Source: Magnetococcales bacterium (lineage in GTDB: Bacteria; Pseudomonadota; Alphaproteobacteria; UBA2136). Taken from it: a DNA stretch of 41,204 bases. The position numbers were made by a program, and so were the translations under genes. Positions 1,793 to 11,030 of the stretch are shown in pieces; positions within the stretch are counted from its first letter, which is position 1, and each line of letters begins with the position of its first letter. Below the pieces are notes generated by a model. That model worked only from the letters and a program-made list of their open reading frames with translations, was not told the origin of the DNA and did not search any database. The stretch is from assembly GCA_002689455.1 (NCBI GenBank), contig NZGE01000010.1, forward strand, positions 1 to 41,204, read 5' to 3'.

Positions 1793-1911
1793 GGGGGTTT
1801 TTTGCGCCTGTGTGTTTTATATTTTATGTTTAAAAATAAATATTTTTGTAAATGTTAAAGGGAACAGCTATAATTTCCAAGTTGAAAATAAAAAGAACTG
1901 AACGGAAAAGC

Positions 1912-3702
1912 ATGGAACCTACTGGAATTATTATAGTACTTTCTATTTTGGTAGGGTCGATTGTTTTGTTTGTTACCGATAAACTTCGTGTGGATTTGGT
2001 TGCAATGATTGTTCTTTTGACACTTCTCCTTACAAATTCTGTCCCAGAATCTGAAATTTTATCAGGCTTTGCAAGTCCTGCAACGATGACTGTGGCTGCT
2101 ATGTTTATTATTAGTGCAGGTCTTCAACGAACTGGTATTGTAAGATATATTGCCAGCCGCCTTCATTTACTTGTAGGCGAAGGAAAAGAACGTTTAACCC
2201 CTATTATTATGATGACCTGCGGTTTTTTTAGTGCTTTCACAAATAACACGGCCACCGTTGCTGTCTTAATGCCAGTTTCATTAAAATTATCAGCTGAAAG
2301 AGGGTTGAACCCATCTAGAATTTTAATGCCCTTGTCATTTGCGGCTCAGTTTGGTGGTGTTTGTACGCTGATTGGTACAACAACAAACCTGCTTGTGAAT
2401 GCAATTGCGATTGATCATGGTATTCAACCTTTTAATATGTTTGAATTTGCGCAGCTTGGTATCGTTTGTTTTGTGGTTGGGAGTGTTTACATGTTATTTG
2501 CGAGTAAATACCTTTTAAAGGACAATGCAAAGCTCTCGGATGCAACGGCAGAATACCGTTTGAAGGACTATATGACTGAAATGCGCGTTTTGGAGGGGTC
2601 TCCTTTGATTGGTCAGCGTGGGGTTGATAATGACCTTACTAAGCTTGGCAATGATAATTCAACTATTCGTGTTTTAGAAATTGTGCGCGAAGGTCGTATG
2701 ATTTGGGCGCCTCAAACCACTGAAATACGAGAAGGCGATCTTTTATTGATTCGGGGTGATATCGGCAAGGTGATGGAATCGGAGTCGATGCTTAAAATAG
2801 AAGACTGGGCTGAAGGTAACTTAAGTAATATCCACTTACAAAGTGACGATATAACATTGGTAGAAGTTGTTATTCCAAGTGGCTCAAGCATTATTGGCCG
2901 TTCTTTAACACAGCTTGACTTTTATTGGCGTTACCATGCGGCAGTTTTAGGTGTGCGTCGCCGTGGTGATGTTTTGCATGAACGTATCGCTAAAATTGAC
3001 TTTAAAGAGGGGGATACCCTTTTACTTCAAGGTCACAAAGAAGATTTATCCCACATTTCAAATGAAAAAGATTTTATGCTTTTGCAAGATTTGTCAACAT
3101 TACGCCTTAAAAAGCGTCGTTCAATTATCGCATTTATGATTTTAGTTTGGGTTCTTTTAGCAGCCTCAACAGGTTTTATGTCCATTCTTGCAGCTTCCTT
3201 AATTGGGGCGATTGGTATGATTGTTACACGTTGTATTACAGCTTCAGAAGCTTATGACGCTGTTGATTTTAAAGTTATAGTTCTACTTGCAGGGCTTATA
3301 CCGCTTGGCATGGCGATGGAGCATTCTGGTTTGGTGGATTTAATTGTAGATTTTATGATTTTGTATGTCGGACAGTATGGTCCATATGTTTCTTTATGTG
3401 TGTTGTACTTTATGACAGTGTTCTTAACATCTGTCATGTCAAATGCAGCTACAGCTGTGCTTTTAGCACCCATTGGGCTAGCGCTTGCAGAAGGTTTTGC
3501 GGTTGACCCTAAACCATTTTTGATGGCTGTTACATTTGCAGCCTCAACTTGTTTTGCCACACCTGTGGGTTACCAAACAAACGTTATGATTTATGGCCCT
3601 GGGGGTTATAAATACATAGATTTTCTTAAAGTGGGTCTTCCGCTTAATCTTATCTTTTTCGTTATTTCTGTCACACTGATACCTTTGTTTTGGCCTTTCT
3701 AA
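1912..3702 (+). CDS. SLC13 family permease with two central TrkA-C (RCK_C) domains
   Basis: ORF track 1852..3702; the in-frame ATG at 1912 (MEPTGIIIVLSILVG) fits better with the TM start. CitMHS/SLC13 TM blocks (FTNNTATVAVLMP, SNAATAVLLAPIGLALAEG) flank two TrkA-C-like segments. Confidence 0.85.
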   Translation: MEPTGIIIVLSILVGSIVLFVTDKLRVDLVAMIVLLTLLLTNSVPESEILSGFASPATMTVAAMFIISAGLQRTGIVRYIASRLHLLVGEGKERLTPIIMMTCGFFSAFTNNTATVAVLMPVSLKLSAERGLNPSRILMPLSFAAQFGGVCTLIGTTTNLLVNAIAIDHGIQPFNMFEFAQLGIVCFVVGSVYMLFASKYLLKDNAKLSDATAEYRLKDYMTEMRVLEGSPLIGQRGVDNDLTKLGNDNSTIRVLEIVREGRMIWAPQTTEIREGDLLLIRGDIGKVMESESMLKIEDWAEGNLSNIHLQSDDITLVEVVIPSGSSIIGRSLTQLDFYWRYHAAVLGVRRRGDVLHERIAKIDFKEGDTLLLQGHKEDLSHISNEKDFMLLQDLSTLRLKKRRSIIAFMILVWVLLAASTGFMSILAASLIGAIGMIVTRCITASEAYDAVDFKVIVLLAGLIPLGMAMEHSGLVDLIVDFMILYVGQYGPYVSLCVLYFMTVFLTSVMSNAATAVLLAPIGLALAEGFAVDPKPFLMAVTFAASTCFATPVGYQTNVMIYGPGGYKYIDFLKVGLPLNLIFFVISVTLIPLFWPF

Positions 3703-3797: not shown

Positions 3798-4412
3798 ATG
3801 AGTATTATTGATGATTTTATTGGCGCGTTAGAGCTAGGTCAGCGTTCAGGGGCAATGACTATTGAAAAAACAATGGACCTTATTTTAGCTAAAGCACGTC
3901 GTCATACGGCAGCAGAGGCTGGGAGTATTTTTATTGTGCGTCCAAACGCTGATGAGCCTGCAGAATTAAAAGCATGTTCCCTGCAAAATGACCGCATTCA
4001 AATGAATCAAGAAACTTTTTCTGTGCCTATTAATAAAACAAGTATTGCAGGTTATGTTGCTGTAACAGGTGAAGTTGTGGAAGTGGATGACTTATATGAA
4101 ATATCACCAAACATGCCATACTCTTTTAACAGAAGTTTTGATGACAGGGCAGGTTATCGATCTAAGTCAATGTTGGCATTTCCACTTAAAAATTATCAAG
4201 GTCAGGTGATTGGTGTTGTACAGCTTTTAAATCATATTAATGGTGTGGATGAGTTAGGAACGCCAACGTATGAACCCTTCCCATTCACGTTTGTGGATGA
4301 TATGAAAAGTTTGATTAGTGTGTTGGGTGCTATGGTTGAACGTACAGACCTATTGTTTGAAATTAAAAAACTTCGTAAAGAAGTTGAAGCTTTGAGAGGA
4401 ATTAAAGCTTAA
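3798..4412 (+). CDS. GAF domain-containing protein
   Basis: Single GAF-like fold pattern: AEAGSIFIVRPN...VPINKTSIAGYVAVTGEVVEVDDLYEI...YRSKSMLAFPLKNYQGQVIGVVQLLNH. Confidence 0.8.
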   Translation: MSIIDDFIGALELGQRSGAMTIEKTMDLILAKARRHTAAEAGSIFIVRPNADEPAELKACSLQNDRIQMNQETFSVPINKTSIAGYVAVTGEVVEVDDLYEISPNMPYSFNRSFDDRAGYRSKSMLAFPLKNYQGQVIGVVQLLNHINGVDELGTPTYEPFPFTFVDDMKSLISVLGAMVERTDLLFEIKKLRKEVEALRGIKA

Positions 4413-4437
4413 ATTTCATCAACGAACAGTATGAGGG

Positions 4438-5760
4438 GTGTTGTTGGTTAGAGATATCGCATTTAAATTTTTGTTATTGGCAGGGTTTGTTACCCTGCCT
4501 TTGGTTGCTTTTTCACAAAATTTAGATACGGATGATAATCAAAGTGAAACGAACGAACTAACGCAACTTTTTGAAGAGATTTCAAGAAACCCAGATAATT
4601 TAAATAACAATTACAGATACGCAAAGCTTGCTGAAAAAATGGGTAAGTATTACGAATCTATTGCGGCATATGAACGTATGTTGATTCAAAGCCCAAGCCT
4701 TGATCGTGTTAAATTAGATTTAGCCTTGCTTTACTTTAAAGTGGGTAGTATGGATGAGGCAAAGAAGTTGTTTTTAGAGGTGAAGTCTAAAAACCCTCCT
4801 GCGCAGGTTGCTCAAAATATTAATAAATTTCTAGCACAAATTGATGGGAAAAACCGCAAGCACAGCTTTGGTGCTAACGTTACATTAGGCTATGGGTCTG
4901 ATTCAAATCCAAGCGCTTCACCAAGTTCAGGGTCTGTAGATGTTTTTGGTGTTGGTATTCCTGTGGATGATGCAACTTCAGGTCAATCAGATGATCAAAA
5001 ATTCGCACATGTGCGCTTAACGCATAGTACTCAAGTTCCATATGTAAAAAATACTGTGTGGAGTAACGAAGCCTCTTTTTATAAGGCAGTTCAGGATAAT
5101 GCATCCTCTCTAAATACAACGGTATATGCTTTAAAGACAGGGGTTTCACAATCAAATCAAAATGGCCGATTACGTTACGGTGCACATTTAAATTGTTCGA
5201 ATGTGAATTTGGCAGAGCATGAATATTTAAACACATATGGCTATGACGTTTTTATGGATTATATCATGTCTCGTAAGGCTAAGTTACGTTTAAGTCATTC
5301 CCAAGATTATCGTAAATTCCAAAATAGCCCAACCGTTACAACATATGAAGATCGAAATGGTCGTGCCAGTGAAGATAAGCTATCGCTAACGGCTATGGTT
5401 ACGCCTAAAGATATTGTAAACGCAAGTTTGTCCTTAAGGCGTGAACATGCGGGTGTCGATTATTATACAAATCGATCTAGGAGTTTTGGTTTAAACTATA
5501 CGCGTTTATTGGAAAATGGTTTTTACATGACGGGTGGTGCAACGTTTAAACGCACTAAATATAAAGATGTGGATTCTTTTGTAAACCCGTTTGTGGTGCG
5601 AGAAGATAATGAAAGAACATGGACTGTTGGTTTAGGCAAAAATATAACTTCAAACTTAACATGTGGTTTTGTTTACCAAGATAAAAAGATCGAATCTAAT
5701 ATCCAAAACTATGAATATACCAATGAACGTATCACAGCTACGTTGAGCTGGAGATATTAA
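4438..5760 (+). CDS. TPR plus outer-membrane beta-barrel protein, Slam (DUF560)-like
   Basis: GTG start, signal peptide, TPR-like helices (NNNYRYAKLAEKMGKYYESIAAYERMLIQSPSLDRVKLDLALLYFKVGSMDEAKKLF), then amphipathic beta-strands beginning VTLGYGSDSNPS and ending in aromatic ...TATLSWRY. Confidence 0.65.
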   Translation: MLLVRDIAFKFLLLAGFVTLPLVAFSQNLDTDDNQSETNELTQLFEEISRNPDNLNNNYRYAKLAEKMGKYYESIAAYERMLIQSPSLDRVKLDLALLYFKVGSMDEAKKLFLEVKSKNPPAQVAQNINKFLAQIDGKNRKHSFGANVTLGYGSDSNPSASPSSGSVDVFGVGIPVDDATSGQSDDQKFAHVRLTHSTQVPYVKNTVWSNEASFYKAVQDNASSLNTTVYALKTGVSQSNQNGRLRYGAHLNCSNVNLAEHEYLNTYGYDVFMDYIMSRKAKLRLSHSQDYRKFQNSPTVTTYEDRNGRASEDKLSLTAMVTPKDIVNASLSLRREHAGVDYYTNRSRSFGLNYTRLLENGFYMTGGATFKRTKYKDVDSFVNPFVVREDNERTWTVGLGKNITSNLTCGFVYQDKKIESNIQNYEYTNERITATLSWRY

Positions 5761-5832
5761 TTTGTCAGTTTGTGGAAGTATATAACTTTAGAGTTAACCT
5801 ATAAATAAAAAGAATAATTAAGGGATATATTC

Positions 5833-8733
5833 TTGAAAAATACATTAAGAGCATTTTTGGTGTTAGTGGCATTGGCTGTTGCTGTGCCTGCTTGGTCCGT
5901 TGAAACGATTGGTAAAGTTTTAGCTGTTAAAGGTGATGTTAAGGCAGTTGCTGCTGACGGAACAGAAAGAAGTAAACTTTCACTATCTTCTCCTATATAT
6001 GCAAATGAAAAAATTTATACAGGGGAAAATGCCAAGGTACAAATTATGTTTAGTGATAAATCACTCTACACAATTGGTCAAAATGCAGAAGTAATTTTAG
6101 ATGAATATGTTTACAACCCTGAAACAGGTGATGGTAAATCAATCATTGAAGTCACAAAGGGTATTTTTAGGTTTTTAACGGGTGATATTGCTAAAAAAGA
6201 TCCTGAAAAAGTAAAAGTCAACACACCATTTGCAACAATTGGTGTGCGTGGTTCAGGTGGTATTGTCAATGTTGAACCAACAGGGCAAACAACACTTAAT
6301 ATGACAGAATGTTGTTTGAACATTTCACAACGTGGAAACAATGCGCCGCCAGTTCAGCTAACGCAGGTTAATACGTTTAGCCGTGTTACACCTGCGGGTG
6401 AGGTTTCACAACCAGAGCCTGCCCCGATTGATATGCTGATGAAATTGCAGGGAGCTGTTGATTTAAAAGACGCGTCTCGTTTAGATGAAGCGCCAGTTGA
6501 AAAGAAATCAGAAGCTCAAAAACCTAAGAAAAAAACTTTAAAAGCACTGGTTAAAACGAAGCAGTCAGACGGTCAGTTGTTATCAGAGGGTGAAGAGGGT
6601 GAAAATCAGTCATCAGAGGAACAGCAGGCTCAAAACGAAGGTGGGAATAATGACGTAGATGGTACGCAGCCGCCAGCTTTGCAAGCGGGTTCAGCTGATG
6701 AAGGTGAAGGGGTTTCACTTAATAATACACCCGATGGAAATGATAATGTAGGTACGGAGTCTGGCGATGACAACAGTTTATTGTCAACATTTGGTTCAGG
6801 GGGTGGTGACAACTTCGACGGTGAACTAGACAGTGGAGATGGTTTCGAAGGGGATGGACAACCTATGGCTGGCGATCCTGCAGCTGGTACAAATAATGTA
6901 ACGGATTCACAGCAGCAACAGGCTGTGGAAGATACATTTGGCGGTAACAACAAAGCCTCCTTGTCAGACTTTGGTGAAGTTTTAAGCGGTACATGGAAGC
7001 GCCAAGATAGGGAAGGTATTAATGAGCGTAGTGGAAGTTTAAATGTTGCACTTAAAGAGGATGTCAAAACTCTGATTGTGGAAAGATTTGATTCAACTGG
7101 TAATTATATAGATCGTATGAGTTTTGATGCGCCTGCTGAAAAAGGGCGTGCAAAAACATCTGAACATCCTCAATTGCTAGGCAGTTTTGTTTACAGGGGT
7201 TTAAATGATAACTTTTATTACGTTTCTTCCAATTTTGGTCGTAACTTAAACCTTGGGCAAATTGTGGCAGGTAGCAGTGGTGTTCTAAACTCAGGGAATC
7301 AAGGTCAACAGCTGGGCGGACAAAGGCTTTATTTTAACTTTTTACCAGATACCTTTACAGGGCTTGACCAATTTGTAGATTTTAATTTAGCAGATGGTGT
7401 TTCAAACCCATTAAGAGGTTCGGGCTTTGAAGGGGAAAGACGTCACGAAGGGGCGGGGCTCATTTTTGATTATACCAATAACAATGCACAGTTCTTAGGT
7501 GGGCATGTTAACCTGTCCTATGATCCTTTAAAGGGCACTTATAATGATAGCTTTAAGTTTATGGTTGGTGAGATTGAAGGGTCAGGAAGTAATGCCTTAA
7601 CAGGTTCTATATATAGCCTGACAAATGATAGTTTTGGAGGAGGGGTAGGTTATGAATCAGGTGCACTTACAGCCAATGAAAATGAAATATATGGTGACAT
7701 TAACACATCAACAGCACAGGCTGAAATTGATGCCTATAAGTTGAATTTAGGTACAGAAACGGCCTATGCTGTGAATACGGGCGCATCTGATAATTTAAGT
7801 GTGAATAGCACGAGCGGAGCTCAAACCTTAAAAGGTTTCTCCTCTGGTTTCGTTGTGTTGGACACTGAAAATGCGCCAACAGCGGTACGTTTAGGGAATA
7901 ACGATATGTTAGGGGTTCAAATGACCCGTCAAGACCATACAGGCTCAGGCACTTCTTTTGAAACGGTTATAAGTCTCAACAAAATTGATACGAACGGTGA
8001 TATGGGATCTGCCCCAGCGGATAACTTTAAAGTCAGCTTCGGTGGAGCAGGCGCGGATTCAGCCTATATTTCACATAATGTTTATGGCGCTGAAGAATCT
8101 CAGAGTGGTTCAGGCTATGATATTGGATCAAATTACGATACTTTTTCGGGAAACCCTGCTGATGTAAATGGTGCGATGCTTTCAAGTTATTTTATAGACA
8201 TGCCAGACCGCCCTGAGATTGAAGAAACTTGCCAAGACTGCCAGTACTTAACATGGGGTGTTTGGGCGGCTGATATTGATATAAACGGTGAAATAGCTAC
8301 AGCTCAAATTGTGCCGTATGTGACAGGTCGTGAGTATCAAACATGGGACAATATCACTGGTAATGGCGTTACAAACGCATCTTATAAAGGTGTGTTGGTT
8401 GGCTCAGTAACTAATAATGGATCGGATGTACGCCATGATGTTGGCGTTTACACGGCAGATGTGGACTTTTCCAATAGGAAAATTGGTTTTGATGGGCAGT
8501 TTGCGGGTTATCACTTTTATGACAGTAATGTTGTGACAGGAGCTGCGGGTTCAAATTATGGTTTTAAAGAGGTGAAACTTGATAACTTGAAAAATAACTT
8601 AGGTGTTGATGTTGGAGATGCGACCATTAGTGGTGCATTCTATGGTGCAAGTGCTGAGGAAATGGGCGGTACTTTCAACTTTAAGCATGGCACGGTTGAG
8701 GCTGCTGGTATCTATGCAGGTAAAAAACAATAA
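5833..8733 (+). CDS. Large FecR-domain protein with acidic low-complexity linker and C-terminal TbpB-like barrel domain
   Basis: TTG start, signal peptide (...VAVPAWS). FecR block (SLYTIGQNAEVILDEYVYNPETGDGKSIIEVTKGIFRFLTGDIAKKDPEKVKVNTPFATIGVRGSG), Asp/Glu/Gly/Gln-rich linker, C-terminus ...ATISGAFYGASAEEMGGTFNFKHG, which resembles the TbpB barrel 'GaFYGp.AeElGG.F' signature. Confidence 0.75.
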   Translation: MKNTLRAFLVLVALAVAVPAWSVETIGKVLAVKGDVKAVAADGTERSKLSLSSPIYANEKIYTGENAKVQIMFSDKSLYTIGQNAEVILDEYVYNPETGDGKSIIEVTKGIFRFLTGDIAKKDPEKVKVNTPFATIGVRGSGGIVNVEPTGQTTLNMTECCLNISQRGNNAPPVQLTQVNTFSRVTPAGEVSQPEPAPIDMLMKLQGAVDLKDASRLDEAPVEKKSEAQKPKKKTLKALVKTKQSDGQLLSEGEEGENQSSEEQQAQNEGGNNDVDGTQPPALQAGSADEGEGVSLNNTPDGNDNVGTESGDDNSLLSTFGSGGGDNFDGELDSGDGFEGDGQPMAGDPAAGTNNVTDSQQQQAVEDTFGGNNKASLSDFGEVLSGTWKRQDREGINERSGSLNVALKEDVKTLIVERFDSTGNYIDRMSFDAPAEKGRAKTSEHPQLLGSFVYRGLNDNFYYVSSNFGRNLNLGQIVAGSSGVLNSGNQGQQLGGQRLYFNFLPDTFTGLDQFVDFNLADGVSNPLRGSGFEGERRHEGAGLIFDYTNNNAQFLGGHVNLSYDPLKGTYNDSFKFMVGEIEGSGSNALTGSIYSLTNDSFGGGVGYESGALTANENEIYGDINTSTAQAEIDAYKLNLGTETAYAVNTGASDNLSVNSTSGAQTLKGFSSGFVVLDTENAPTAVRLGNNDMLGVQMTRQDHTGSGTSFETVISLNKIDTNGDMGSAPADNFKVSFGGAGADSAYISHNVYGAEESQSGSGYDIGSNYDTFSGNPADVNGAMLSSYFIDMPDRPEIEETCQDCQYLTWGVWAADIDINGEIATAQIVPYVTGREYQTWDNITGNGVTNASYKGVLVGSVTNNGSDVRHDVGVYTADVDFSNRKIGFDGQFAGYHFYDSNVVTGAAGSNYGFKEVKLDNLKNNLGVDVGDATISGAFYGASAEEMGGTFNFKHGTVEAAGIYAGKKQ

Positions 8734-8771
8734 CGAGCGCCATTCAATAATAATATAAAAACAGGTGTAAA

Positions 8772-10961
8772 GTGCTTTACAGAAAATTTCTTACCCTTTT
8801 GCCGTGGCTGCTTTTAGCGGCTTTGGTTTATACATATCATCATGAAAGCAATGCATTGAATCCAATGCTCAATCGCTTGCAAAACTACACTTTTGATACT
8901 TATCAGCGCTTGCACCCGCGTGAAAATAAATCTGTTGAAATTTATGTGGTGGATATTGATGAAAAAAGCTTAGAGGCAGTTGGGCAGTGGCCGTGGCCTA
9001 GAAATAAAATTGCAATGCTTATTGAAAAGCTGTTTGAAAAGGGCGTTTCTAGCGTTGGTTTAGATATTGTCTTTGCAGAAAAAGATGGTAAATCACCAGA
9101 TATGTTGGTTGATGAATGGGATGTAGACACACAGACTAAGCAAAAATTATTAGAAATTCCAAGCCATGATGATGTTCTGGCACAGGTTTTTGCTAAATAT
9201 CCGGTTGTTGCAGGGTTTGTTGGTTCTCCTGGATTTAAGGTTAACAGTCGATCTGTATCTGTTTTTGATCCTAAAGTTGAAATTAAAAATAAAGATAATG
9301 TGCTAAACCATGTTATGCCAGGGGTTATTGGAGCCCGTAATATTGAGAAACTGGAAACGGCGGCGCAATATCATGGTTATTTTGGTTATTATCAAGATAC
9401 AGACAGTGCTATGGTTCGTCATGTTCCATTGTTTTTTAGAGCTGGTGAATATATATATCCAACGCTTGCCTTGGCAACTTTGAATGCAGCAAATGAATCT
9501 AACCATGTTTATGATATTGAAACGGATGCTTATGGCTTAAAAAGTGTTTCTTTGGAAGGTCGTTTTTCTATTCCAATTGAAAGCAATGGTCAATATAGAA
9601 TTTATTATAGAAAGTACATAAATGATAAAGTGGCTGGGAGGTATATATCCGCTGTGGGTATATTAAATGAAAAAGAAATTCCTCAAAACTTAAATGCGGC
9701 TATGGTACTTATTGGAACAAGTGCTGCAGGGACCTTTGATTTACGTTCAACGCCTCTTGACCCAGTTGTTCCAGGCGTAGAAAGTCATATTCAAATGCTT
9801 GAAAGTATGTACTTAGGCGAACACTTAACAAGGCCGAGGGCAATGAAAGATTACGAATTATATGCACTTATCGGTTTGGGTGTGATTTTACTTCTTTCAG
9901 TGCATTACTTTGGAGCCCTTGTAGGTTTGGCTGTTTTTTCAATTCTGAATATATCGGTTTTGGCAACAGCGGCTTATTTCTTTATTAATGAACTGATATT
10001 GGTTGATGTGTCGTTTATTCTTTTATCGTTGTTTATTTTATATTTAGGGCAAAGCATTATTAAATATGCGATGGAAAGGGCTTCCAAGCGTGCAATAAGA
10101 AATGCCTTTAGTCATTACCTTTCACCGGAAATGGTAAAAATTGTATCGGAAGACCCTTCAAAGTTATCACTTGGGGGTGAGGAAAAGGAAATTACAGTTC
10201 TGTTTAGTGATATTAGGGGTTTCACAACAATGAGTGAGGGGTTAACGCCAAAGCAGTTAACAACTGTTTTAAATCGCTATTTAACCCCAATGACAGAAAT
10301 TGTACAAAATCATAATGGTACTATTGATAAATACATGGGCGATGCAGTGATGGCGTTTTGGAATGCGCCACTTAATATTAAAAACCATGCATTTAAAGCA
10401 TGTGCTGCTGCTTTAGAGATGTTGGCAAGGTTAAATAAATTAAATGAAGAACTTAAAAAAGATGGTTTGCCAGTTATTGATATTGGCATAGGCCTTAATA
10501 CCGATACAGTCACAGTGGGTAACATGGGTTCAGACCAACGCTTTGATTATACAATTATGGGTGACGGTGTAAATTTAGGGTCACGGCTGGAAGGTCAGTG
10601 TAAAACATATGGTGTAAAGCTCATTATTAGTGAATCAACTTTCAATCAACTTTTGAAGGTGCAGGATGTATCTGCAATGTATTTAGATACAGTAGCTGTA
10701 AAAGGTAAAACGGACGCTGTTAAGATTTACAACCTTCTTTCATTGGATAAGCCAAGCGGTGAGATGCTGGAAAAAATCGAGCTCATGAAAAGGTTCTCAG
10801 TTGAATTTAAGTGTCAACAATGGGAAAACGCCTTAGAAACAATTAAAAGCGATTTAATTCCACTTACAGTGCGAGATATGTACATTGAAAGAATATCGGA
10901 ACTGTCAAAGCAAGAATTACCTGAAAATTGGGATGGAGTTTATTTTGCAAGCACAAAATAA
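8772..10961 (+). CDS. CHASE2 domain plus class III adenylate/guanylate cyclase
   Basis: GTG start; N-terminal TM; CHASE2 pattern (VYVVDIDEKSLEAVGQWPWPRNKIAMLIEKL...GLDIVFAEKD); three C-terminal TM; catalytic domain VLFSDIRGFTTMSE...IDKYMGDAVMAFWNAP...FDYTIMGDGVNLGSRLE, with metal-binding Asp pair and K/T adenine-type selectors. Confidence 0.92.
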   Translation: MLYRKFLTLLPWLLLAALVYTYHHESNALNPMLNRLQNYTFDTYQRLHPRENKSVEIYVVDIDEKSLEAVGQWPWPRNKIAMLIEKLFEKGVSSVGLDIVFAEKDGKSPDMLVDEWDVDTQTKQKLLEIPSHDDVLAQVFAKYPVVAGFVGSPGFKVNSRSVSVFDPKVEIKNKDNVLNHVMPGVIGARNIEKLETAAQYHGYFGYYQDTDSAMVRHVPLFFRAGEYIYPTLALATLNAANESNHVYDIETDAYGLKSVSLEGRFSIPIESNGQYRIYYRKYINDKVAGRYISAVGILNEKEIPQNLNAAMVLIGTSAAGTFDLRSTPLDPVVPGVESHIQMLESMYLGEHLTRPRAMKDYELYALIGLGVILLLSVHYFGALVGLAVFSILNISVLATAAYFFINELILVDVSFILLSLFILYLGQSIIKYAMERASKRAIRNAFSHYLSPEMVKIVSEDPSKLSLGGEEKEITVLFSDIRGFTTMSEGLTPKQLTTVLNRYLTPMTEIVQNHNGTIDKYMGDAVMAFWNAPLNIKNHAFKACAAALEMLARLNKLNEELKKDGLPVIDIGIGLNTDTVTVGNMGSDQRFDYTIMGDGVNLGSRLEGQCKTYGVKLIISESTFNQLLKVQDVSAMYLDTVAVKGKTDAVKIYNLLSLDKPSGEMLEKIELMKRFSVEFKCQQWENALETIKSDLIPLTVRDMYIERISELSKQELPENWDGVYFASTK

Positions 10962-11006
10962 AACCTTAATTCATTAAAATTAATAAACGTGTAACTTTAA
11001 AGTCAC

Positions 11007-11030
11007 GGTCAGCGTTTGCTGACCTTTTTA
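11007..11030 (+). terminator. Rho-independent terminator after the cyclase gene
   Basis: GGTCAGC-GTTT-GCTGACC followed by TTTTTATTTTT. Confidence 0.85.

Follow-up and report, generated by a model that had tools for sequence, protein, structure and literature searches.

Proteins of the Slam/DUF560 family, the outer-membrane components of the type XI secretion system (T11SS), are described as TPR helices joined to a 14-stranded barrel (PMC5449769); haemophores are among the known cargo of this system, and cargo of the soluble kind is released whole (PMC8406197). CHASE2 adenylate cyclases of Campylobacterota occur in clusters with FecR, a TPR protein and a phosphodiesterase (PMC9239204), and the BiofilmReg operon of Burkholderia, which is tied to biofilm, includes a FecR gene together with that of a CHASE2 histidine kinase (PMC5192318). 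The FecR–CHASE2 pairing itself is therefore already known from these two reports, and the ligand recognised by CHASE2 domains is stated to be unknown (PMC5192318). A stretch of 41,204 nt from a Magnetococcales bacterium (GenBank assembly GCA_002689455.1, contig NZGE01000010.1, here called the window), which corresponds to contig 11 in a genome of 1.61 Mb and 85.7% completeness, was found to carry a four-gene operon. Comparison of sequences and predicted folds identifies its products as a GAF protein of the cyclic-nucleotide type, a putative T11SS translocon, a soluble-type cargo headed by FecR and ending in a TbpB-like barrel, and a CHASE2 cyclase. We tentatively propose, with a confidence that falls slightly short of even, that the operon signals from the envelope to the cytoplasm and is organised around an exported surface protein, the FecR head of which would relay to the CHASE2 cyclase.

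Products of the four-gene operon

The genes and the domains predicted for their products are as follows.

3798-4412, + strand: GAF protein of the cyclic-nucleotide-binding type, 204 aa (Pfam GAF, 42.8 bits, cut-off 22.4)
4438-5760, + strand: Slam/T11SS outer-membrane protein, 440 aa (Pfam SlipAM, 30.7 bits, cut-off 22)
4528-4851, + strand: periplasmic TPR domain of six helices, residues 31-138 (model secondary structure; TPR_19 and TPR_Slam profiles)
4861-5754, + strand: 14-stranded beta-barrel, residues 142-439 (model secondary structure)
5833-8733, + strand: predicted FecR-headed T11SS cargo, 966 aa (Sec-type signal peptide and no lipobox Cys, read from the sequence)
6010-6288, + strand: FecR domain, residues 60-152 (Pfam FecR, 38.8 bits, cut-off 24)
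8248-8727, + strand: C-terminal TbpB-like barrel region, residues 806-965 (AlphaFold2, region pLDDT ~57-85; Foldseek)
8772-10961, + strand: CHASE2 class III adenylyl cyclase, 729 aa (Pfam)
8850-9887, + strand: periplasmic CHASE2 sensor between transmembrane segments, residues 27-372 (Pfam CHASE2, 163.4 bits, cut-off 26.3; hydropathy)
10185-10736, + strand: cyclase catalytic domain, residues 472-655 (Pfam Guanylate_cyc, 80.6 bits, cut-off 21.9)
11007-11030, + strand: terminator-like stem-loop (11007-11024) and T run, ~45 nt past the last stop

An earlier note on this DNA, made from the sequence alone, had described four tightly spaced genes closed by a terminator and had named a GAF protein, a Slam-like TPR-barrel protein, a FecR protein with a TbpB-like end and a CHASE2 cyclase as their products. 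Scans for open reading frames (ORFs) and stem-loops bore out the layout, with intergenic gaps of 25, 72 and 38 nt, and Pfam, structural models and fold searches agreed with the products. As the terminator scan returned 9 such sites against 5.5 expected across the whole scan, the argument for the terminator is its position and not its score.

The SlipAM alignment of the 440-aa protein covers profile positions 109-287 of 288, while TPR_Slam scored 33.6 bits, just below its cut-off of 35.2, and TPR_19 was above cut-off. Relatives of the protein matched SlipAM at E <= 0.01 in 13 of 20 cases. The AlphaFold2 model, built from ten sequences, has a mean pLDDT of 84.9, and its 14 barrel strands are long, with pLDDT mostly >80. 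Failure to match DUF560/Slam profiles, which the earlier note had named as a result that would refute its reading, was not observed: SlipAM matched above cut-off, and the model shows TPR helices with 14 strands. That the protein is instead an ordinary TPR porin or polysaccharide channel, the FecR protein being periplasmic or exported by another route, is rather improbable. The best solved folds for the model were BcsC and FadL-type barrels, a 'TPR protein' is present in the Campylobacterota clusters (PMC9239204), and in some alphaproteobacterial loci a TPR-barrel protein adjoins a short FecR protein without a cargo end; however, the SlipAM score, the number of strands and the Slam-type cargo adjoining it all argue for Slam, and the fold search was unable to name Slam because no solved Slam structure appeared among the best matches from the fold library.

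The C-terminus of the 966-aa protein, read as TbpB-like in the earlier note, has by predicted fold a barrel of the Slam-cargo type, the last eight strands of the model lying at residues 848-965. Pfam TbpB_B_D scored 21.5 bits, below its cut-off of 26. In a Foldseek comparison of the C-terminal piece, the top 50 PDB matches were all TbpB, LbpB, NHBA, fHbp, HphA or filed under the name surface lipoprotein; the model of this piece is mostly disordered, so that whole-query TM-scores are low, and it is unusable ahead of residue 389 of the piece. A relative of the cargo at locus L029 matched TbpB_B_D above cut-off (46.1 bits) and the NCBI slam_lipo model below the cut-off of that model. A profile of the last 190 cargo residues, made from the order, found the proteins of L187, L189, L191, L029 and L045, all Slam-linked, at E <= 7e-9 (values that apply to that small sequence set), and none of 20 FecR proteins adjoining CHASE2 genes without a full Slam barrel. 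The cargo has no lipidation signal, unlike the TbpB/fHbp class, and in this it resembles the soluble cargo class (PMC8406197).

Catalytic motif residues of the cyclase are complete (D480, D524, K520/T594, N601/R605), as claimed previously. We take D480 and D524 to bind the metals, K520/T594 to recognise adenine and N601/R605 to stabilise the transition state. The Lys/Thr pair is typical of adenylyl cyclases, and adenylate cyclases are also the nearest solved relatives. No other CHASE2 protein and no other class III cyclase domain turned up in the genome.

The GAF protein is of the cyclic-nucleotide type by kinship, its nearest solved relatives being cyclic-nucleotide-binding GAFs. The best PDB matches were GAFs of CyaB2, PDE2A (GafB), PDE5 and PDE10, and all 17 matches but one, a metal-dependent phosphohydrolase, were GAFs of phosphodiesterases or cyclases. 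The NKFDE motif is partial: N is invariant, H stands in place of K in six of six orthologues, and the acidic end is variable. A Pfam scan of the window genes disclosed no cyclic AMP (cAMP) phosphodiesterase. In Aliidiomarina (L070, L073) the CHASE2 cyclase gene is preceded by genes for a PDEase_II-like phosphodiesterase and for a GAF protein of larger size. The genome from which the window derives also encodes, on contig 37 (L143:456-1004, - strand), a cNMP-binding protein of 182 aa that stands alone and whose phosphate-binding cassette looks intact. Its gene adjoins an ORF resembling a potassium channel with two transmembrane segments; homologues of the protein occur in genomes G006 and G003, and it is possibly a second cAMP effector.

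Conservation of the operon and of the FecR–CHASE2 pairing

Lack of joint conservation in relatives, which the earlier note had named among the results that would refute its reading, was not observed: the four-gene set is kept contiguous and collinear in six genomes of two orders (G000, G006, G001, G004, G005 and G167, the last at locus L187). Within the order, represented by 18 genomes, the GAF protein, this SlipAM type and the CHASE2 cyclase share the same seven genomes (families f1-f5), five of which have GAF, Slam, FecR/cargo and cyclase genes in a row; neither the cyclase nor the GAF protein was found in the 11 f6 genomes. In G002 and G003 (f3) the operon is GAF–Slam–cyclase, and large FecR/TbpB-like proteins with the same C-terminus are encoded elsewhere in the genome (the TBPB profile used in the neighbourhood survey was built without these proteins). 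The unlinked FecR cargo of G003 (L140:8397-12110) has FG-GAP repeats between the FecR head and the C-terminal barrel, and for this reason the middle of the cargo looks exchangeable.

The sister genome of the same genus is Proteobacteria bacterium UBA2136 (L008); a contig filed under Kordia sp. TARA_039_SRF (L009) equals the UBA2136 contig L008 over 22,187 identical bases and is a mis-binned or mislabelled record. In f6 genomes (L146:4702-7622; L148) a related Slam gene overlaps that of a secreted proline-rich protein, with no cyclase; this protein has no recognisable FecR or TbpB domain and is a possible unrecognised T11SS cargo. A FecR domain in the Slam neighbours of f6 genomes G015 and G016 was considered and rejected (hhalign probability 0.2, no Pfam match). 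An apparent Slam–cyclase fusion in L027 and L186 was likewise rejected as an artefact of ORF calling, as the SlipAM region (from 1681) is out of frame with the 1242-aa ORF (from 1161).

A SlipAM gene was found in 23 of 192 genomes of the class. The tree places the 440-aa protein in a FecR-linked Slam subfamily. On this tree the Slams adjoining FecR genes occupy a separate region, with two changes of the FecR label, a number as low being reached in none of 500 shuffles. The sample was collected partly via the cyclase, so the rows of the class survey are the fair part of this test; outside the order, fetched Slam neighbourhoods with FecR fell inside the FecR-linked part and those without it fell outside.

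Of the best 150 FecR matches in the same 192 genomes, at least 24 have one of the best 150 CHASE2 matches within 8 kb, where ~1 is expected (an enrichment of ~25x over chance), and 15 of these pairs are within 1 kb. This association, together with the two published pairings, is the strongest ground for supposing joint action of the two domains in the periplasm.

Wider relatives were sought among 80 loci of related cyclases. The cyclase stands beside Slam and a FecR cargo in L029 (labelled Deltaproteobacteria, and Myxococcota in the tree output), L045, L047, L049, L067 and L080. In three gammaproteobacterial rows of this kind the product of the fourth gene is an FAD oxidoreductase in which Pfam identifies two cNMP_binding domains together with 4Fe-4S domains, making it a candidate for redox catalysis under cAMP control:

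L049:5738-8119: FAD oxidoreductase with cNMP_binding domains
L067:16232-18631: FAD oxidoreductase with cNMP_binding domains
L080:15319-17721: FAD oxidoreductase with cNMP_binding domains

In Tardiphaga (L012:2505-12115 and L017), genes for a protein with FecR, cadherin-like and serralysin-type C-terminal domains, an ABC exporter, HlyD and a CHASE2 cyclase occur in a row, and the type I secretion cargo in L018 has the same FecR domain. The row in L012 and L017 is a type I secretion counterpart of the window operon, in which the exporter differs and the FecR head and sensor are the same. The single-seed ABC and oxidoreductase profiles matched generic families, and calls were limited to direct neighbours checked with Pfam.

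A further gene, overlooked in the earlier reading, lies 95 nt upstream of the GAF gene on the same strand and is probably the first gene of the cluster:

1852-3702, + strand: CitMHS/SLC13-like anion permease with two TrkA_C domains (Pfam CitMHS 281.9 bits, TrkA_C 69.6)

A permease gene is adjacent, on the same strand and upstream of GAF in the window, L008, L090, L091 and L187, and not in L088 and L089; this amounts to four of the six four-gene genomes and one further genome. The whole set is found again in L187, which belongs to a different order within the class, and the gaps there are 7, -4, 63 and -1 nt, counted from the permease onward. The permease in five loci, the haemophores among known T11SS cargo, the secretion of soluble cargo whole, and the G015/G016 case in which a related Slam adjoins a secreted protein and no cyclase fit an explanation by shared regulation: the T11SS–cargo pair would act outside the cell, for example in nutrient capture feeding the permease, CHASE2 would sense something else, and the common operon would reflect the same condition. 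We regard this explanation as doubtful, though it deserves more weight than any other alternative considered here. FecR–CHASE2 operons exist without Slam and with other outputs (PMC5192318), so that FecR tracks CHASE2 rather than the exporter, and the Slam neighbour in G015 is without a detectable FecR domain.

A possible relay from exported cargo to cyclase

In the signalling operon that we favour, the Slam-like barrel would take the C-terminal barrel of the cargo over the outer membrane, and the FecR head, in the periplasm before or after export, would touch the CHASE2 ectodomain. How much cAMP the cyclase makes would depend on the state of the cargo with respect to export or occupancy, and the GAF protein would read or buffer the cAMP. 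Because an anion permease adjoins, a nutrient is a plausible ligand of the surface part. Were the cargo exported whole, contact would be limited to cargo waiting in the periplasm, and CHASE2 would thus be a sensor of export backlog; were the FecR head retained, CHASE2 could read the occupancy of the surface part. The head resembles the LapA retention module, which weakly favours retention over whole export: the NCBIfam profile of this module matched the heads of the window cargo and of the L012, L018, L187 and L029 proteins at 22.5-32.4 bits (cut-off 50).

The earlier note had suggested a relay of this kind, and the comparisons support it in part, through the conserved gene set, the cargo-type fold beside a Slam, the joint occurrence of cargo end and exporter, the FecR–CHASE2 association, the row with another exporter and the same sensor in L012 and L017, and the cNMP_binding oxidoreductases of the gammaproteobacterial rows. 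Several points weigh against this reading. Contact, export and cAMP regulation are all inferred from sequences and models, and the soluble T11SS cargo known so far is released from the cell entire, so that FecR would be carried away from CHASE2 (PMC8406197). A FecR gene lies within 6 kb in 32 of 85 related CHASE2 cyclase loci, the majority being without one; L021 and L183 pair Slam with a short FecR protein that lacks the cargo C-terminus, and the gammaproteobacterial cargo C-termini are weakly linked by sequence to those of the order. The perfect co-occurrence within the order sets one family against the rest and may reflect one gain or loss.

The same LapA likeness would also suit a checkpoint of export or adhesion, in which the FecR head would act as a retention module like that of LapA and plug the exporter, CHASE2 would read stalled, retained or released cargo and cAMP would control attachment. 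The FecR domain of the type I secretion cargo in L012, L017 and L018 and the link of the Burkholderia operon to biofilm (PMC5192318) are consistent with such a checkpoint, but the LapA match is sub-threshold and spans residues 26-92 alone, and Slam is a different exporter. We consider it unlikely.

The signalling reading may be put more generally, with still less assurance, as a possible scheme of cargo-status sensing: a FecR head on a surface protein with its own exporter (T11SS, or type I secretion in Hyphomicrobiales) would be read by periplasmic CHASE2, leading to cAMP or, with a kinase output, to phosphorylation, and FecR would be the missing partner of CHASE2.

Two further genes lie upstream of the permease:

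1265-1792, - strand: extracytoplasmic function (ECF) sigma factor-like gene, divergent from and upstream of the permease
633-1268, - strand: multi-pass membrane protein, partner of the ECF-like gene

The ECF-like gene, also present in the sister genome at L008, raises the question of classical FecI/FecR surface signalling, in which the FecR protein would control it. This is highly improbable, as the FecR protein has a signal peptide at its N-terminus and lacks a cytoplasmic anti-sigma segment, while the ECF-like gene has its own membrane partner and does not accompany the cluster in L090, L091 and L187.

Comparison with known systems

No report of a FecR-headed T11SS cargo or of a T11SS–cyclase operon was found in the open-access literature, where absence is not proof. 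The terms 'FecR', 'cyclase' and 'CHASE2' are absent from the main text of a 2025 survey of T11SS cargo, and 'FecR' and 'cyclase' from that of the 2021 T11SS survey (PMC8406197). In the literature searched there was likewise no report of a LapA retention module linked to FecR, or of FecR with type I secretion and a cyclase. Should CHASE2 have the FecR head of an exported protein as its partner, two soluble domains would suffice for a direct test of what it recognises. T11SS, so far associated with haemophores, adhesins and metal-binding cargo, would then gain a signalling role, and a cargo would be predicted for Slams of a subfamily that lies beyond the characterised cluster.

The window operon resembles T11SS with TbpB_B_D cargo (PMC5449769, PMC8406197, PMC12282271) in that a protein with TPR helices and a 14-stranded barrel adjoins a cargo with an eight-stranded TbpB-like C-terminus, and it resembles the soluble cargo in its SPI-type signal peptide. 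It differs in the FecR head and in its neighbours: TonB receptors give way to a CHASE2 cyclase and to a GAF protein of the cyclic-nucleotide type. In the Campylobacterota clusters the fourth gene encodes a phosphodiesterase, no T11SS or cargo barrel is described, and function was proposed from clustering alone (PMC9239204). The Burkholderia BiofilmReg operon likewise has the FecR protein gene directly ahead of the CHASE2 sensor, but there FecR is fused to LysM and CHASE2 to a histidine kinase, and a response regulator is present (PMC5192318). FecI/FecR/FecA signalling shares the FecR domain, whereas the window cluster is without an anti-sigma segment and without a TonB receptor. LapA-type retained adhesins have a weakly similar N-terminal module, and FecR-headed type I secretion adhesins adjoin CHASE2 cyclases in related loci; the window exporter, in contrast, is of the T11SS type, and the similarity lies below the curated cut-off.

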